Part shown: one piece after another, positions 11,379 through 17,795 of the stretch
Layout: each line of letters begins with the position of its first letter
How positions within the stretch are numbered: position 1 is the stretch's first letter
Assembly (NCBI RefSeq): GCF_014524565.1
Contig: NZ_CP060139.1
Span: 2,859,501-2,923,500, forward strand
From: Croceimicrobium hydrocarbonivorans
GTDB lineage: Bacteria; Bacteroidota; Bacteroidia; Flavobacteriales; Schleiferiaceae
Direction of reading: 5' to 3'
Length of the DNA stretch: 64,000 nt
Position numbers and translations under genes: made by a program
Notes under the pieces: generated by a model
Seen by the model: only the letters and a program-made list of their open reading frames with translations
Told to the model about the DNA's origin: nothing
The model's database searches: none

Positions 11379-13481
11379 ATGTCCATCCTGAGCACTGCCA
11401 TAGAATACCTGAAAGGAGTAGGGCCGGCCAAAGCCGATTTACTGAAGAAGGAGCTACAGATTTTTCGCTATGCCGATTTATTGCAATTGTATCCTTATCG
11501 CTATGTAGATCGCAGTCGTTTTTATAAGATCAATGAGTTAGGGGGCACTGCAGCTGAGGTACAGATTAAAGGCCGCATTACCAATATGGAGGTGCAAGGA
11601 CCAAAAGGTCGCGGCAGCCGTTTAAAAGCTACTTTCCAAGATGACACCGGAGAGGTGGAATTGGTTTGGTTTAAGGGGGTACAGTGGATTCAGAAATCCT
11701 TGAAATTGCATCAAGACTATGTGCTTTATGGAAAGCCGAACTTTTTTAATGGCAGCTTGAGTTTCCCACATCCTGAACTGGACCTGGAGGCGGATTTTAA
11801 ACGTAGCCCTTTGCGGGGATTGCAACCCTTATATCCAAGTACAGAAAAGCTTAATCAAAAAGGATTGAATAATAGGGGTTTAGCCAAATTAACCAAGGTG
11901 CTTTTGCCTCAGTTAAAAGGGGTTTTACCGGATTTCTTCCCGGCTCATTTTCGGGATCGTTATGCCTTAATGACGCGGGAAGAAGCATTAATGCAAATTC
12001 ATTTTCCTAGTAGTATTGATAAAGCGGAGGCCGCACGCTTACGCTTGAAATTTGAGGAGCTTTTCTTTTTTCAGATGGAGATGGCCGCCCAAAAGCGTCA
12101 GCATCACCGGGAATTTCAAAGTTTCGCTTTCGCGGAAGTCGGCGCACACTTCAATCATTTTTACGAAAAGGTTTTACCCTTCGAATTAACGGGAGCCCAA
12201 AAAAGGGTGCTCAAGGAAATTCGACAGGATATGCGCTATGGTAAGCATATGAATCGTCTCCTTCAAGGGGATGTGGGATCCGGGAAAACCATGGTGGCCT
12301 TAATGGCGATGTTAATTGCCATAGACAATGGTTTTCAGGCCTGCTTAATGGCGCCTACCGAAATTTTAGCCCAACAACATTATCAAGGTATTCGCGAATT
12401 ATTGGAAGATTCTCCTTTGCAAGTAGCCTTACTAACTGGCTCGGTAAAGACCGCTGATCGGAAGGTAATTCATGAAAATTTGCAATCGGGGGAACTTCAC
12501 ATTTTAATTGGCACCCATGCCTTATTGGAAGATAAGGTGAAGTATAAAAACCTGGGCCTGGCGGTAGTGGATGAGCAACATCGTTTTGGCGTTGCACAGC
12601 GGGCCAAGCTCTGGAAGAAGAATAAATTACCGCCTCATATTTTGGTAATGACGGCCACTCCCATCCCACGAACCCTGGCCATGAGTATTTATGGCAATTT
12701 GGACCTTTCGGTGATTGATGAATTGCCACCAGGTAGAAAGCCCATTACTACCAGTCATGCTTTTGATAAGGATCGCAATAAGCTCTTTGGCTTTTTGGAG
12801 ACGGAGATAGAAAAGGGTCGTCAGGTATACATCGTGTATCCGCTGATTGAAGAGTCGGAGAAAATGGATTATAAAGACCTGATGGATGGTTATGAAAGTA
12901 TCTGCCGTGCTTTCCCTCGACCCAAGTATCAGGTTAGTGTGGTGCATGGAAAGATGAAGCCTGAGGATAAGGATTTTGAAATGCAGCGCTTCGCTTCGGG
13001 TAAAACTCAAATTATGGTGGCGACCACGGTAATTGAAGTAGGGGTGAATGTACCTAATGCCTCAGTGATGGTAATTGAATCCGCCGAGCGCTTTGGATTG
13101 AGTCAATTGCATCAGTTACGCGGCAGGGTAGGGCGTGGCGCTGAAAAGAGCTATTGCATATTAATGACTGGTCCGAAATTAAGTCGGGATGCTCAAGTTC
13201 GAATGAAGACCATGGTGCGTACCCAGGATGGTTTTGAAATTGCCGATGTGGACCTCAAATTACGTGGACCGGGAGATTTAACCGGAACCCAGCAAAGTGG
13301 CATGCTCAATCTTAAACTAGCCGACCTTAGGCAGGATACTCCAATTATGGATTTATCGCGCCGGGCCTTACAAGATTTATTCAATGCGGATCCTTCTTTA
13401 AAAGCAGCTGAGCATCAGAGTATATTGGAGGAATTTGCCAAGCGAAAATCCGGTAAAATCGACTGGGGGCGTATCGCCTAA
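11379..13481 (+). CDS. recG: ATP-dependent DNA helicase RecG
   Basis: 700 residues, the usual length. An N-terminal helical region (GPAKADLLKKELQIFRYADLL) leads into the OB-fold wedge domain (about 60-160) that splits replication forks. The superfamily 2 motor follows: Walker A GDVGSGKT near 298, motif II VVDEQHRFG near 397, motif III MTATPIPRT near 425 and the C-terminal helicase motif VIEVGVNVPNASVMVIE. The end has QLRGRVGRG (motif VI) and the TRG motif region. RecG reverses stalled forks and processes Holliday junctions in recombination repair. It stands alone, with its own promoter. Confidence 0.97.
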   Translation: MSILSTAIEYLKGVGPAKADLLKKELQIFRYADLLQLYPYRYVDRSRFYKINELGGTAAEVQIKGRITNMEVQGPKGRGSRLKATFQDDTGEVELVWFKGVQWIQKSLKLHQDYVLYGKPNFFNGSLSFPHPELDLEADFKRSPLRGLQPLYPSTEKLNQKGLNNRGLAKLTKVLLPQLKGVLPDFFPAHFRDRYALMTREEALMQIHFPSSIDKAEAARLRLKFEELFFFQMEMAAQKRQHHREFQSFAFAEVGAHFNHFYEKVLPFELTGAQKRVLKEIRQDMRYGKHMNRLLQGDVGSGKTMVALMAMLIAIDNGFQACLMAPTEILAQQHYQGIRELLEDSPLQVALLTGSVKTADRKVIHENLQSGELHILIGTHALLEDKVKYKNLGLAVVDEQHRFGVAQRAKLWKKNKLPPHILVMTATPIPRTLAMSIYGNLDLSVIDELPPGRKPITTSHAFDKDRNKLFGFLETEIEKGRQVYIVYPLIEESEKMDYKDLMDGYESICRAFPRPKYQVSVVHGKMKPEDKDFEMQRFASGKTQIMVATTVIEVGVNVPNASVMVIESAERFGLSQLHQLRGRVGRGAEKSYCILMTGPKLSRDAQVRMKTMVRTQDGFEIADVDLKLRGPGDLTGTQQSGMLNLKLADLRQDTPIMDLSRRALQDLFNADPSLKAAEHQSILEEFAKRKSGKIDWGRIA

Positions 13482-13546: not shown

Positions 13547-14092
13547 ATGAAAAAGCTAATTGTACTCCTCTTGGGCCTCAGCATAGCCTCTTGTTCTTAT
13601 GAAAGCAATGTGCCCGGACCAGTAGGTCCACAAGGCCCTCCCGGACCCGGATTGAGTTATCGTATTATTGATGCCACCGCTCTTTTTGAGAACTGGTTGC
13701 CCTTTAATAATCCTGGTGAAATCGACTATCAATATTATCAGGAATTCAATGCCCCAGAAATTGATCAATACACCTTCGATAATGGATTGGTGATTGGTTA
13801 TCAGATTGATGGAGGAACTACTTATACACTGCCAAACACCATTAACTTCGATGGTTATACCCGCGAGTTTAGTTTGTATTACGGTGTTGGCTATGTAGGT
13901 TTTATCTGTAAAGATTCCGACTTACAATCTACTCCTCCTGATGTTGACCAATATTTTAAGGTGTATATCGTAAATCCTTCCAGTGGTAAGCGCGACCTCA
14001 GTGGAATGTCGCAAACAGAACTGGAGTTGTATCTTCGCGAGATGAAGGCCGAAGGATCGGCTCGCGAGATCAATCTTACCCGAAAGAAATGA
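13547..14092 (+). CDS. Lipoprotein with short collagen-like segment
   Basis: 181 residues. The N-terminus MKKLIVLLLGLSIASCSYE is a type II signal peptide with lipobox IASC (Cys16). Directly after it comes a collagen-like G-x-y run (GPVGPQGPPGPG, about residues 24-35), then a globular region of about 140 residues without recognised family. Short collagen-like linkers after a lipobox recur in Bacteroidota lipoproteins and may act as a stalk. Its TGA stop overlaps the ATG of the M1 peptidase gene (ATGA), implying translational coupling. No promoter element was identified in the 65-bp gap behind recG. Confidence 0.75.
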   Translation: MKKLIVLLLGLSIASCSYESNVPGPVGPQGPPGPGLSYRIIDATALFENWLPFNNPGEIDYQYYQEFNAPEIDQYTFDNGLVIGYQIDGGTTYTLPNTINFDGYTREFSLYYGVGYVGFICKDSDLQSTPPDVDQYFKVYIVNPSSGKRDLSGMSQTELELYLREMKAEGSAREINLTRKK

Positions 14093-16434
14093 CCTTAAAT
14101 AAGTGCTCTATATACAGACCGATGTTTCTAAGCATCGGTCTTTTTTTTGTGTTCGTATCTGGCCTGAAAGCTCAGGATTTTAAAAGCCTGCATTTGGTGG
14201 CGCGCTTCGACACTATTGATGAAAAGGTTTTAGGAACCGTTTACCATCAAGTGGCAGTAGGCGAGGATGTAGATCAATTGGTGCTCAATGCCATTCGCAT
14301 GGAGATTAAATCCTTGCAATTAGATGGTGAGGATTGGGATTTTGAGCAGAATGATACGGCTCTTTTCATTCCTATAAAGGAAGCTGAAAGGGGAGAGCTT
14401 CAATTGCGAATTGAGTATGAAGCTAAGCCCAATAAAGGAATCTACTTTATTGGCTGGCAAGATGAGACCCGCCGGGCCCGCCGACAAATCTGGACGCAGG
14501 GTCAGGGCATTGATCATCGACATTGGATTCCTCATCATGATGATCAAACTGATAAAATTCTTTTTTCGGCTGAGTGGATTTTTAATTCCGATTATCAGAT
14601 AATGAGCAATGGTCAACTGGATTCCATGGTGACCAAGGAAGGCGAGAGCCACTGGTATTACAGTATGGATAAGCCCATGAGTTCCTATCTAATCGCCATG
14701 GCTTTAGGAAACTATGTTGCCAGTGCTCAAATGATAAAGGGGACACCTCATATCTTATATCATTATCCCGATCGAATCGCAGATAGTGCCTGGTACTACT
14801 ATCGACATCAACATATAGCTTCTTTTCTGGAGGGGGAAATTAATTATGAATATCCCTGGCGCAATTATAAGCAAGCGCCAGTAATGGACTTCCGTCATGG
14901 GGCTATGGAGAATACCTGTGCTACCATTTTTGGAGATTTCTTTTTGGTGGATTCCATTGCCTTTAATGATCGTAATTATACCTATGTAGACGCCCATGAG
15001 TTTGCGCATCAATGGTTTGGGAATTTGGTGACTGCGGCAGGGTCCGAGCATCATTGGCTGCATGAGGGTTTTGCGACTTATTATCAGTGGTTAAGTGAGG
15101 AAGAGCTTTATGGTTCCAATCATTATGATTGGGAATTGTTTAAGGCTCGAGAATTAATTGAGGGGGCCGCTGCTCGTGATAGCCTTCCCTTGGCACATCC
15201 CAAGGCGGGAGTGGAACGTTTTTACCAAAAGGGTGGCTGGTTATTGCACATGCTTAGGAACTATGTAGGCGACTCGGTATACCGCGTGGTGATTGACGAT
15301 TATTTACATCGTTATACTCATCAGGTAGTGCACAATGAAGATTTGATTGCGCTATTTGAAAAGCACAGTGATAAAGATATCCGAGCTTTTTTTGATCTGT
15401 GGCTTTATGGAAAGAAGGAACCAAGTTTACGCATCAGGCACAGTCCTATTAAAGAGGCTTTGGTAACTGATTTAAGTGAAGCCATGCCTCAGGAATTGGA
15501 GTTCGCATTTTTGGTGAATGGTAAATGGCGTTTTCAAAAACATCAAATACCCAAAGGGCGCTCGATGGTCCTTATTCCAGACTCTTGTACCGCCTACTAT
15601 CTGGCGAAGGTGGATGATTTACTTCTGACGCTGGATGATGAAAGCATGACCTCAGAATACTATCGGATCGCTTTTGAGGCGAATGATGACTTGGCCGCCC
15701 GCTGTCGCTATATGCGCGAGTGGCCGCAATGGGAGGAGGATTTAGATTTCATCAAGTCAGTAGCGGAGAATAAGCAGAATTTTCATTGGCTTCGCGCCGA
15801 AGCGATACGAGCCTTTGTTCGAATTTCAAAAGACAGAAATCAAGAAAAGGCCTTGGTAGAAAGCCTGCTCCGCAGCACAAAGGATGTACAATTGCAAAAG
15901 GCGATTATGACTGTGGTTTTGAAAGAGAAAATGGACATTGATGCTCAGATCTTAGCGGATTTACGTCAGTATGGTGGCTCCTATGAATTGAGGTCTTCAG
16001 CCTTACAAGCCAGTATTGATCCCGATAATTTGGCGAATATGAAATGGCTCAATGATGCACATTGGGCGGAGCAACCAGGAATAGTAGGACACGATCTTTA
16101 TTTGCAAACTCTTTTTTATCGATTTGCCTTTTTTCGGGATCAAGAGGCCTTAGCCAAAATGTTGGATTTTGCCGGACCATCCTTCGATTTTAATACCCGC
16201 ATGAATGCCTTGAGCTTTTTGTCTTATCTACCGATTGATGCCGATTTGTATTGGCAGCGATTGTTTGAAGCCTTCCAAAACAAAAACTGGAAACTTAGTA
16301 AAATGGGACGTGAGAAACTCCTTGATTTACAAAGCAAGGAAGCTGCTCAGTTTAAAAAGGCTTACCGCAAGGCCAGGCGCGATTGGGATGATTTTCAAAA
16401 GCAAAAGGCAGAGCGTACTTTTGAGAAGGAATAG
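14089..16434 (+). CDS. M1 family zinc metallopeptidase (aminopeptidase N-like), secreted
   Basis: 781 residues. The substrate-amine motif GAMENT is near residue 272. The zinc site HEFAH near 302 is followed 18 residues later by Glu (WLHEGFATYY), giving HEXXH-X18-E; the family's usual WLNEGFA reads WLHEGFA here. A catalytic Tyr candidate lies downstream, and the C-terminal 350 residues are helical repeats. A signal peptide ends at GLKAQ, so it works outside the cytoplasm. Two starts are possible: ATG 14089, overlapping the previous stop, or ATG 14122 (MFLSIGLFFVFVSG). The stretch 14117-14148, inside these first codons, is a textbook intrinsic terminator; translation from 14089 would unfold it. 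Confidence 0.9.
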   Translation: MTLNKCSIYRPMFLSIGLFFVFVSGLKAQDFKSLHLVARFDTIDEKVLGTVYHQVAVGEDVDQLVLNAIRMEIKSLQLDGEDWDFEQNDTALFIPIKEAERGELQLRIEYEAKPNKGIYFIGWQDETRRARRQIWTQGQGIDHRHWIPHHDDQTDKILFSAEWIFNSDYQIMSNGQLDSMVTKEGESHWYYSMDKPMSSYLIAMALGNYVASAQMIKGTPHILYHYPDRIADSAWYYYRHQHIASFLEGEINYEYPWRNYKQAPVMDFRHGAMENTCATIFGDFFLVDSIAFNDRNYTYVDAHEFAHQWFGNLVTAAGSEHHWLHEGFATYYQWLSEEELYGSNHYDWELFKARELIEGAAARDSLPLAHPKAGVERFYQKGGWLLHMLRNYVGDSVYRVVIDDYLHRYTHQVVHNEDLIALFEKHSDKDIRAFFDLWLYGKKEPSLRIRHSPIKEALVTDLSEAMPQELEFAFLVNGKWRFQKHQIPKGRSMVLIPDSCTAYYLAKVDDLLLTLDDESMTSEYYRIAFEANDDLAARCRYMREWPQWEEDLDFIKSVAENKQNFHWLRAEAIRAFVRISKDRNQEKALVESLLRSTKDVQLQKAIMTVVLKEKMDIDAQILADLRQYGGSYELRSSALQASIDPDNLANMKWLNDAHWAEQPGIVGHDLYLQTLFYRFAFFRDQEALAKMLDFAGPSFDFNTRMNALSFLSYLPIDADLYWQRLFEAFQNKNWKLSKMGREKLLDLQSKEAAQFKKAYRKARRDWDDFQKQKAERTFEKE
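14117..14148 (+). terminator. Intrinsic terminator embedded in the peptidase signal-peptide codons
   Basis: GACCGATG (14117-14124) and CATCGGTC (14133-14140) form a perfect 8-bp stem with an 8-nt loop, followed by eight T residues (14141-14148). It lies just after the lipoprotein stop and would end that transcript, yet it is within the peptidase reading frame. Confidence 0.75.
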
Positions 16435-16436
16435 CT

Positions 16437-17795
16437 ATGCCTGCCAATCACAATCGACTTAGCCAGTTTCTGGTTTTATTAGGAGACTTTGCCCTCCTCA
16501 ATGCTGCATTTTTCGGAGCGGCTTGGCAGCGCTTTCGGGATTTGCCTTTTTTCGATACTCCCTATTACGACTATTACCTACAGCTCTGGTTGATCCTTAA
16601 TTTGCTGTGGTTGGTATTGAGCTTGATTTTCCGAACCTATGATTTGGCCTTAAAGCCCGAGCCTCGGCAATCGGTATCCAAGACCTTTAATGTATTTGTG
16701 AGTCACCTTTTTGTGGTGCTCCTATTATTAGTGGCCTTGCAGCGAAGTGAGCAGTACAGCCGTTTGTTCTTCGTGTATTTCTACAGCGGTGTGGCTCTCA
16801 CTATTTTACCCTGGCATTTCTTTTACCTTCGATTTTTACGCTCCTTTCGACGTCGATCACGGCCTTTACGCACCGTAGTCTTGGTAGGAGAGGGACGGGC
16901 TTTTGATGATTTCATTCAATTGGTGGGGCGCAATCCGGAATTAGGAATAGCGGTATCTCGCAGCTTTCGCATCGATAAATCGGATAGCCTGGAAGATCTG
17001 GAATCCTATCTGGAGCAATCTCCCGGTGAAGAATTATTTGTAGCCTTAAATCCTGGTCATGCTGCGTTTGGGAAATTGTACCGTTTGGCGGATCAGCATG
17101 TAATGAATTTCCGAGCCCTGCCTGATTTAGGTATGCCTCCCATGAAGAGCATGCGCATTGATTTTTACGATCATCTGCCGGTATTAAGCTTCCGGCCCGA
17201 GCCCTTACAGCAATGGCATAACCGCTGGTTGAAGCGCAGTTTTGATATCCTCTTTTCTTTGCTCTTAATTTTGATTTGCCTGCCCCTTTTATTTCCAATT
17301 CTAGCGATTGGGGTGAAATTATCGGGACCCGGTCCCATTTTCTTTAAGCAGAAACGCAGTGGTTATCGTGGGGAGGAATTCGTGATTTACAAGTTCCGAA
17401 GTATGGCCTTGAATGCCCAATCGGATACGCATCAGGCGAAAGCCGAAGACCCCCGCATCACTTCTTTCGGACGATTTATTCGGCGTTGGCATTTGGATGA
17501 ATTGCCCCAGCTTTTTCAGGTTTTAGGAGGAGAGATGTCGATGGTGGGACCCAGGCCGCATATGATTGCCCATACCGAAGAATACCGCAATTTGGTAGAT
17601 CGCTATATGCTCAGGCATTTGGTGAAACCTGGATTAACCGGTTTGGCGCAGGTGCAGGGTTATAAGGGGGAGCACGATTTACCCTCCATGGAAGCAAGGG
17701 TACGCGCTGATGTGTATTATTTGGAGAATTGGAGCCTGCTGCTCGATCTGAGTATCATCTTACGAACTTTGGCAAGCTGGTCTAAAACCAATTAA
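16437..17795 (+). CDS. Exopolysaccharide/O-antigen initiating sugar-phosphate transferase (WbaP/WcaJ type)
   Basis: 452 residues. Four or five N-terminal membrane helices (about 10-125), then a Rossmann-like CoA-binding-type domain (about 140-250), a further membrane-dipping helix (KRSFDILFSLLLILICLPLL, about 265-285) and the catalytic core. The core shows FFKQKRSGYRGEEFVIYKFR, then DELPQLFQVLGGEMSMVGPRPH with the conserved DELPQ and GPRP motifs. Such enzymes move hexose-1-phosphate from UDP-sugar to undecaprenyl phosphate and start a glycan. It begins 3 bp after the peptidase stop and is followed by a strong terminator. Confidence 0.93.
   Translation: MPANHNRLSQFLVLLGDFALLNAAFFGAAWQRFRDLPFFDTPYYDYYLQLWLILNLLWLVLSLIFRTYDLALKPEPRQSVSKTFNVFVSHLFVVLLLLVALQRSEQYSRLFFVYFYSGVALTILPWHFFYLRFLRSFRRRSRPLRTVVLVGEGRAFDDFIQLVGRNPELGIAVSRSFRIDKSDSLEDLESYLEQSPGEELFVALNPGHAAFGKLYRLADQHVMNFRALPDLGMPPMKSMRIDFYDHLPVLSFRPEPLQQWHNRWLKRSFDILFSLLLILICLPLLFPILAIGVKLSGPGPIFFKQKRSGYRGEEFVIYKFRSMALNAQSDTHQAKAEDPRITSFGRFIRRWHLDELPQLFQVLGGEMSMVGPRPHMIAHTEEYRNLVDRYMLRHLVKPGLTGLAQVQGYKGEHDLPSMEARVRADVYYLENWSLLLDLSIILRTLASWSKTN

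Follow-up and report, generated by a model that had tools for sequence, protein, structure and literature searches.

How can the first codons of one gene also be the predicted transcription terminator of the gene before it? The question is raised by a junction in the window, a 64,000-nucleotide stretch of the Croceimicrobium hydrocarbonivorans genome. This genome (G000) was compared with six other members of the genus (G001–G006), making seven genus genomes in total.

The junction lies downstream of recG (11379–13481, + strand), which was recognized by its DEAD, RecG_wedge and RecG_dom3_C domains. The next gene (13547–14092, +) encodes a lipoprotein-like product (181 aa) that contains a collagen-like segment, GPQGPPG, and a lipobox read by eye; a Pfam search matched no family to it. 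It is followed by a gene of peptidase family M1 (14089–16434, +; 781 aa), in which both Peptidase_M1 (PF01433, E 3.4e-35) and Peptidase_M1_N (PF17900, E 1.3e-14) scored over the Pfam cut-off, and which begins with a signal-peptide-like segment. A bacterial sugar transferase gene (16437–17795, +; PF02397) lies directly 3' of it.

Relatives of the lipoprotein gene and of the M1 gene were present in all seven genus genomes, and the sugar transferase followed M1 in all seven and in G013. Of 88 genomes covered by a family search, 21 had a relative of the lipoprotein, and seven of these were the genus. Among the 14 lipoprotein-bearing genomes outside the genus, neighbors were examined in G013 only, where M1 and the sugar transferase were present and the stretch searched around M1 contained no lipoprotein match.

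The sequence at the junction was read directly. The TGA stop of the lipoprotein gene and the ATG of M1 overlap as ATGA (14089–14092, +), in agreement with the initial annotation. A 23-nt spacer (14093–14115, +), which doubles as codons of the peptidase n-region, separates the stop codon from a stem-loop (14116–14141, +) encoding R-P-M-F-L-S-I-G-L. The stem thus starts 23 nt past the TGA and 27 nt past the ATG, and the proposal of a hairpin inside the first M1 codons was borne out. The 8-bp stem and 8-nt loop described at first turned out to be the core of the hairpin, whose complete fold has 11 pairs and a 4-nt loop. A run of eight T (14141–14148, +) provides the U-tract inside Leu-Phe-Phe codons, its first T pairing with A14116. 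The residues encoded at the hairpin are RPMFLSIGLFFV.

The 34-nt element folded at -15.8 kcal/mol, and none of 200 shuffled sequences folded as well. A scan of 10 kb for terminator-like patterns gave 12 matches against 11.0 (sd 3.4) in shuffles. With no excess over shuffles, the simple scan proves nothing, and the case rests on the quality of the hairpin and its conservation. The exact pattern GACCGATG-N3..9-CATCGGTC occurred once in the 4.04-Mb genome. The stem-loop is stable and contains G+C, the U-tract comes directly after it, and the distance from the TGA falls inside the 18–29 nt peak seen in a sample of the genome (below). Judged by structure and position, this is a predicted intrinsic terminator after the lipoprotein gene and inside the first codons of M1, at which transcripts would end in the cell.

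The M1 N-terminus read from 14089 is MTLNKCSIYRPMFLSIGLFFVFVSGLKAQ, and its counterpart in G006 is MIHNPLNIVRPMFFIGLFFVPNLQAQ. M1 family relatives whose starts were inspected have a hydrophobic N-terminus just before the conserved region, and we presume, on reading by eye, that the segment here is a signal peptide. The suggestion that the hairpin encodes the core of a signal peptide thus held for the coding (RPMF..IGLFFV lies inside the M1 ORF), the signal peptide itself being a judgment by eye. A start at the ATG within the stem (14122–14124) would give no charged residue, and a very short segment in G006. Since the inspected M1 proteins outside the embedded group have other N-termini, the terminator-derived N-terminus is derived within the genus.

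A matching terminator was found 3' of the lipoprotein stop in all seven genus genomes. It lies inside the M1 ORF in four (G000, G001, G003 and G006) and outside M1 in three (G002, G004 and G005). All four embedded cases have the ATGA overlap, and in each the stem begins exactly 23 nt after the stop codon and 27 nt after the ATG. Their hairpins are 26, 26, 26 and 23 nt long, all 2 mod 3. Only such lengths put the 3' arm and the T run in the IGLFFV frame, so the embedded hairpins read RPMF..IGLFFV. The three separate cases have a TAA stop, no ATGA, stop-to-stem distances of 10, 18 and 24 nt and hairpins of 24 nt each; translated in the register of the embedded ones, these give ..HRSFF or ..HRPFF. 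In G004 the terminator begins 114 nt upstream of the M1 ATG. In G002 and G005 a convergent ORF (386 and 382 aa), which we take to be ATP-grasp-like, lies between the terminator and M1, which is about 1.28 kb away.

Changes in the stem preserved the pairing: an A-U pair in G000 is G-C in G004, and wobble pairs were found in G004 and G005. Stem energies ranged from -14.8 to -15.8 kcal/mol inside M1 and from -11.7 to -16.3 kcal/mol outside. The hairpin is not weakened where it is embedded in the gene. Just upstream of the separate M1 genes, G002 (L057) and G004 (L059) have a ATTTCGATTTTAGC box in common, which is perhaps part of these genes' own promoter.

Constraint at the nucleotide level was examined between species. 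Outside the first 35 alignment columns, M1 of G000 and G003 are 60% identical in amino acids, and the codons of residues shared by these genomes agree in 42–50% of cases (four genes). The longest exact DNA match between them over a 6.4-kb block was 35 nt and covered the hairpin and the T run. Another exact match, of 23 nt, lies just upstream of the hairpin, in a stretch not conserved in G006. Between G000 and G006 the exact match at the hairpin was 18 nt, with longer ones elsewhere (up to 25 nt, in the lipoprotein gene and recG), a point against the explanation preferred below.

All hairpin codons for the same residue were identical, with probabilities, from the per-residue codon agreement, of about 9e-5 (G000–G003), 5e-4 (G000–G006) and 1e-3 (G003–G006), the three pairs not being independent. 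These comparisons indicate that the hairpin codons are conserved beyond chance and are not a coding accident. The native 33 nt of the 11 hairpin codons folded at -15.3 kcal/mol, and 91 of 20,000 random synonymous recodings reached -14 kcal/mol or better. The encoded peptide itself leans toward hairpins, another point against that explanation.

The history of the junction was approached with trees of rpoB and gyrB (G001, G013 and the G022 gyrB row left out). These rejected a clade of the embedded genomes G000, G003 and G006 (AU p 0.0006), and also a clade of the separate genomes G002, G004 and G005 (AU p 0.0012). Both rejections became stronger when recG and the sugar transferase gene were added. 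Supports at the contested nodes of the rpoB and gyrB tree were weak (47–84). A single origin of the embedded state as one clade is ruled against by the former p value, with this weak branch support. With both clades rejected, the junction was lost and regained, was exchanged by recombination, or arose twice. The identical spacings of the embedded cases argue for one origin, which would need recombinational exchange, or loss and regain. The convergent ORF between terminator and M1, present in G002 and G005 and absent in the other five genomes, also has a distribution that disagrees with the trees.

Terminators elsewhere were sampled in two genomes: over 864 kb, or 21%, of G000 (the window plus L066–L085 and L103–L122) and over 400 kb of G003 (L123–L142). 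A strict scan gave 103 terminator-like sites in G000: 82 outside ORFs, five no more than 180 nt into a sense ORF, two deeper in sense ORFs and 14 antisense to or partly overlapping an ORF. In G003, 40 of 48 sites were outside ORFs and two were near a sense start. The five near-start sites of G000 comprised M1, a tandem paralogue that is presumably gldN-like, an ORF that presumably is VanZ-like, one site with a likely ATG after the hairpin and one with a poor tail.

The gldN-like paralogue (L072:1036–1899, +) looks similar to the M1 case: its signal-peptide-like start reads through the terminator of the first copy. In G000 only a TTG start is available upstream; in the relative from G001, an ATG immediately follows the T run. 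The VanZ-like ORF (L115:10598–10981, +) has a terminator-like hairpin in PALLW codons, where chance pairing from codon content is possible.

Next genes often began close to a terminator. An in-frame ATG of a sense ORF lay within 60 nt past the stem end, in some cases within 6 nt, at 20 of 93 terminators in G000 and 13 of 46 in G003; these are upper counts, at least one (L106) being an internal Met. Start codons 3–6 nt after the stem were seen at L077:13541–13575 (+), L072:16401–16431 (-) and L128 (G003). TAnnTTTG-like boxes were noticed by eye in the tails of some other terminators (e.g. L069 and L081), which suggests that terminator and promoter overlap at some such sites. M1 is the extreme case of terminators crowding the next gene.

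Stop-to-stem distances were collected for terminators with an ORF stop at most 100 nt upstream (n=69 in G000, n=31 in G003). Distances of 18–29 nt accounted for 46 of 69 and 24 of 31, distances of 12–17 nt for one of 69 and none of 31, and those below 12 nt for 13 of 69 and 2 of 31. A control of 200 kb of E. coli K-12 gave ten usable terminators, four below 12 nt and three at 18–29 nt, a number too small to compare. The clustering at 18–29 nt and the gap at 12–17 nt may be a mark left by ribosomes interfering with terminators in this genus. The gap fits ribosomes at stop codons hindering hairpins, which would imply some coupling of translation and transcription, and hence that the position of the ribosome could matter at the M1 hairpin.

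From the structure, spacing and double conservation of the element, and its presence in all seven genus genomes, we infer a leaky, polar terminator that ribosomes help to pass to a modest degree, and that has been captured as the core of a signal peptide. We give this reading as a whole a probability of roughly 0.55. The hairpin would be the lipoprotein gene's own intrinsic terminator, common to the genus, and the overlap of the two genes would have turned it into coding sequence for the core of the M1 signal peptide. The same bases would then be doubly constrained, by base pairing and the U-tract for termination and by reading frame and hydrophobicity for export. The majority of lipoprotein transcripts would end at about 14148. 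A minority would read through to give a shared, attenuated mRNA for the peptidase and the sugar transferase, and ribosomes crossing the ATGA would probably raise this read-through modestly.

Several published measurements bear on how much a ribosome could do here. A ribosome extends no more than about 10 nt beyond its A site (PMC4824070). One positioned at 14089 therefore leaves a stem 27 nt downstream uncovered, and must first translate several codons. E. coli constructs described in the same source had a terminator 30 bp downstream of a used AUG in a second ORF; it remained largely efficient, translation lowering its efficiency by only about 10%. Terminators recovered with distance from a stop codon: one series gave about 0.12 at 17 bp, another 0.8 at 18 bp, and efficiency was near the maximum beyond 30 bp (PMC4824070). 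A review puts terminator efficiency close to 100% within the first 100 nt of ORFs. As for coupling, the phyla that one paper classed as showing runaway transcription do not include Bacteroidota, although its text never names that phylum (PMC13323073). This absence, the predominant avoidance of 12–17 nt and the unweakened state of the embedded hairpin speak for melting of the hairpin by a re-initiating ribosome. One cost counts against the preferred reading: transcripts ended at the hairpin would contain the start codon of M1 but no stop codon for it, and this would have to be tolerated. Such a cost of non-stop mRNA was observed in E. coli with a terminator placed after a start codon (PMC4824070).

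A stricter dependence on translation comes next in rank, and we consider it doubtful. A ribosome finishing the lipoprotein would restart at the ATG close behind the RNA polymerase, enter the stem and melt the hairpin while decoding the export signal, so that the peptidase and the sugar transferase would be transcribed only during translation of the lipoprotein; the captured terminator would again be doubly selected. The ATGA with its exact spacings in all four embedded cases is in line with this, as are the clustering of stop-to-stem distances at 18–29 nt and their near-absence at 12–17 nt, expected if ribosomes at stop codons hinder hairpins. The pil1 terminator of Streptococcus gallolyticus is relieved by translation into it (PMC3894217), and a ribosome that restarts at ATGA is already near the polymerase, which makes this a faster case than the E. 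coli construct. However, the relief in that construct was small, and distances below 12 nt do occur in both genomes. ATGA overlaps are, moreover, common in operons. A single fold of 13990–14150 (G000 only) kept the terminator in both the MFE and the centroid structure and contained no competing antiterminator stem. An antiterminator was rejected; inspection by eye showed a short complementarity between lipoprotein codons (GGATCGG) and the 5' arm in G000 and G003, but not in G006. The E. coli relief of about 10% and the review, set against the relief at pil1 and the faster restart, placed the leaky polar terminator ahead of the strict translational switch.

A separate promoter inside the lipoprotein gene might mainly transcribe the peptidase and the sugar transferase, the terminator only trimming those transcripts; this is improbable. 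A one-mismatch TAnnTTTG box (TAGGTTTT), with TTG 19 nt before it, lies 193 nt before the M1 ATG in G000 and G001, but at that position G003 has the box without TTG and none was listed in G006. TAnCTTCG boxes without TTG lie 56–59 nt before the ATG in all four embedded genomes; they fall in conserved lipoprotein codons, and one-mismatch boxes are frequent. In G003 another one-mismatch box, TAGAATTG with TTG at 16 nt, lies 73 nt before the ATG. Transcripts from any such promoter would still meet the same terminator. Even less probable is an inert hairpin, an accident of coding or composition at which no termination occurs in vivo. The 10-kb scan, with no more matches than shuffles, would allow this, whereas the matching terminators outside the ORF in three sister genomes, with their paired changes, and the conserved codons speak against it.

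We regard as very improbable a leaderless transcript starting in the 5' arm near 14122, with the in-stem ATG as the start codon and an mRNA that cannot form the hairpin. That ATG is present in all four embedded cases, and several genes in this genome begin very close to terminators. Against it, the protein would begin MFLSIGLFFV without a charged n-region, leaving in G006 about 14 residues before the likely cleavage site (by eye), and no TAnnTTTG box (at most one mismatch) was found between the M1 ATG and the stem in the four embedded genomes. A promoter between the M1 ATG and +120 nt was likewise rejected: the same scan gave no box in G000, G001 or G003, and in G006 an exact TAATTTTG 104 nt after the ATG that has no TTG partner.

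When a terminator is predicted within a coding sequence, it is easy to dismiss it or to assume that ribosomes silence it. Under the reading of a leaky terminator captured by the peptidase gene, the junction would be a natural case in which the same bases have to form a terminator and also code for an apparent export signal, while the enzyme has diverged to 44–60% identity. The sister species with the terminator outside the gene are ready-made controls, and the junction makes the sharing of one sequence by ribosome and polymerase testable in Bacteroidota. It also shows one way in which a signal peptide may arise. More speculatively, terminators, with A-rich stems and U-tracts that code for Lys/Arg followed by Phe, may repeatedly serve as raw material for signal peptides in the compact genomes of Flavobacteriales. 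A search of titles and abstract openings in open-licence PMC, a partial coverage of the literature, found no description of a natural terminator inside a signal-peptide sequence.

Known attenuators provide the closest comparisons. In the trp and pyrBI attenuators, the position of the ribosome decides the fate of the terminator (as cited in PMC3894217 and PMC4824070). Unlike these, the M1 junction has no separate leader peptide, and no antiterminator fold in the one fold examined (13990–14150). The tR2 constructs of E. coli resemble it in having a terminator about 30 nt after the AUG of a later ORF in an operon, and in the resulting non-stop mRNA (PMC4824070). They differ in being artificial, with their own initiation site and no ATGA restart.

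In the pil1 leader of S. gallolyticus, transcription downstream of a stem-loop terminator increases when ribosomes translate into or through it, and isolates with a leader ending 28 nt or more short of the terminator resemble the mostly-off reference strain (PMC3894217). The likeness holds here at the level of the open reading frame: the M1 ORF from its ATG spans the hairpin in all four embedded cases. At pil1 the ORF encodes a short leader peptide and contains phase-variable repeats (PMC3894217), whereas at this junction the ORF is the enzyme itself, started at an ATGA. The working principle is thus known, and the new part is the conserved dual coding, in which the predicted terminator is also the coding sequence of the presumed signal peptide.
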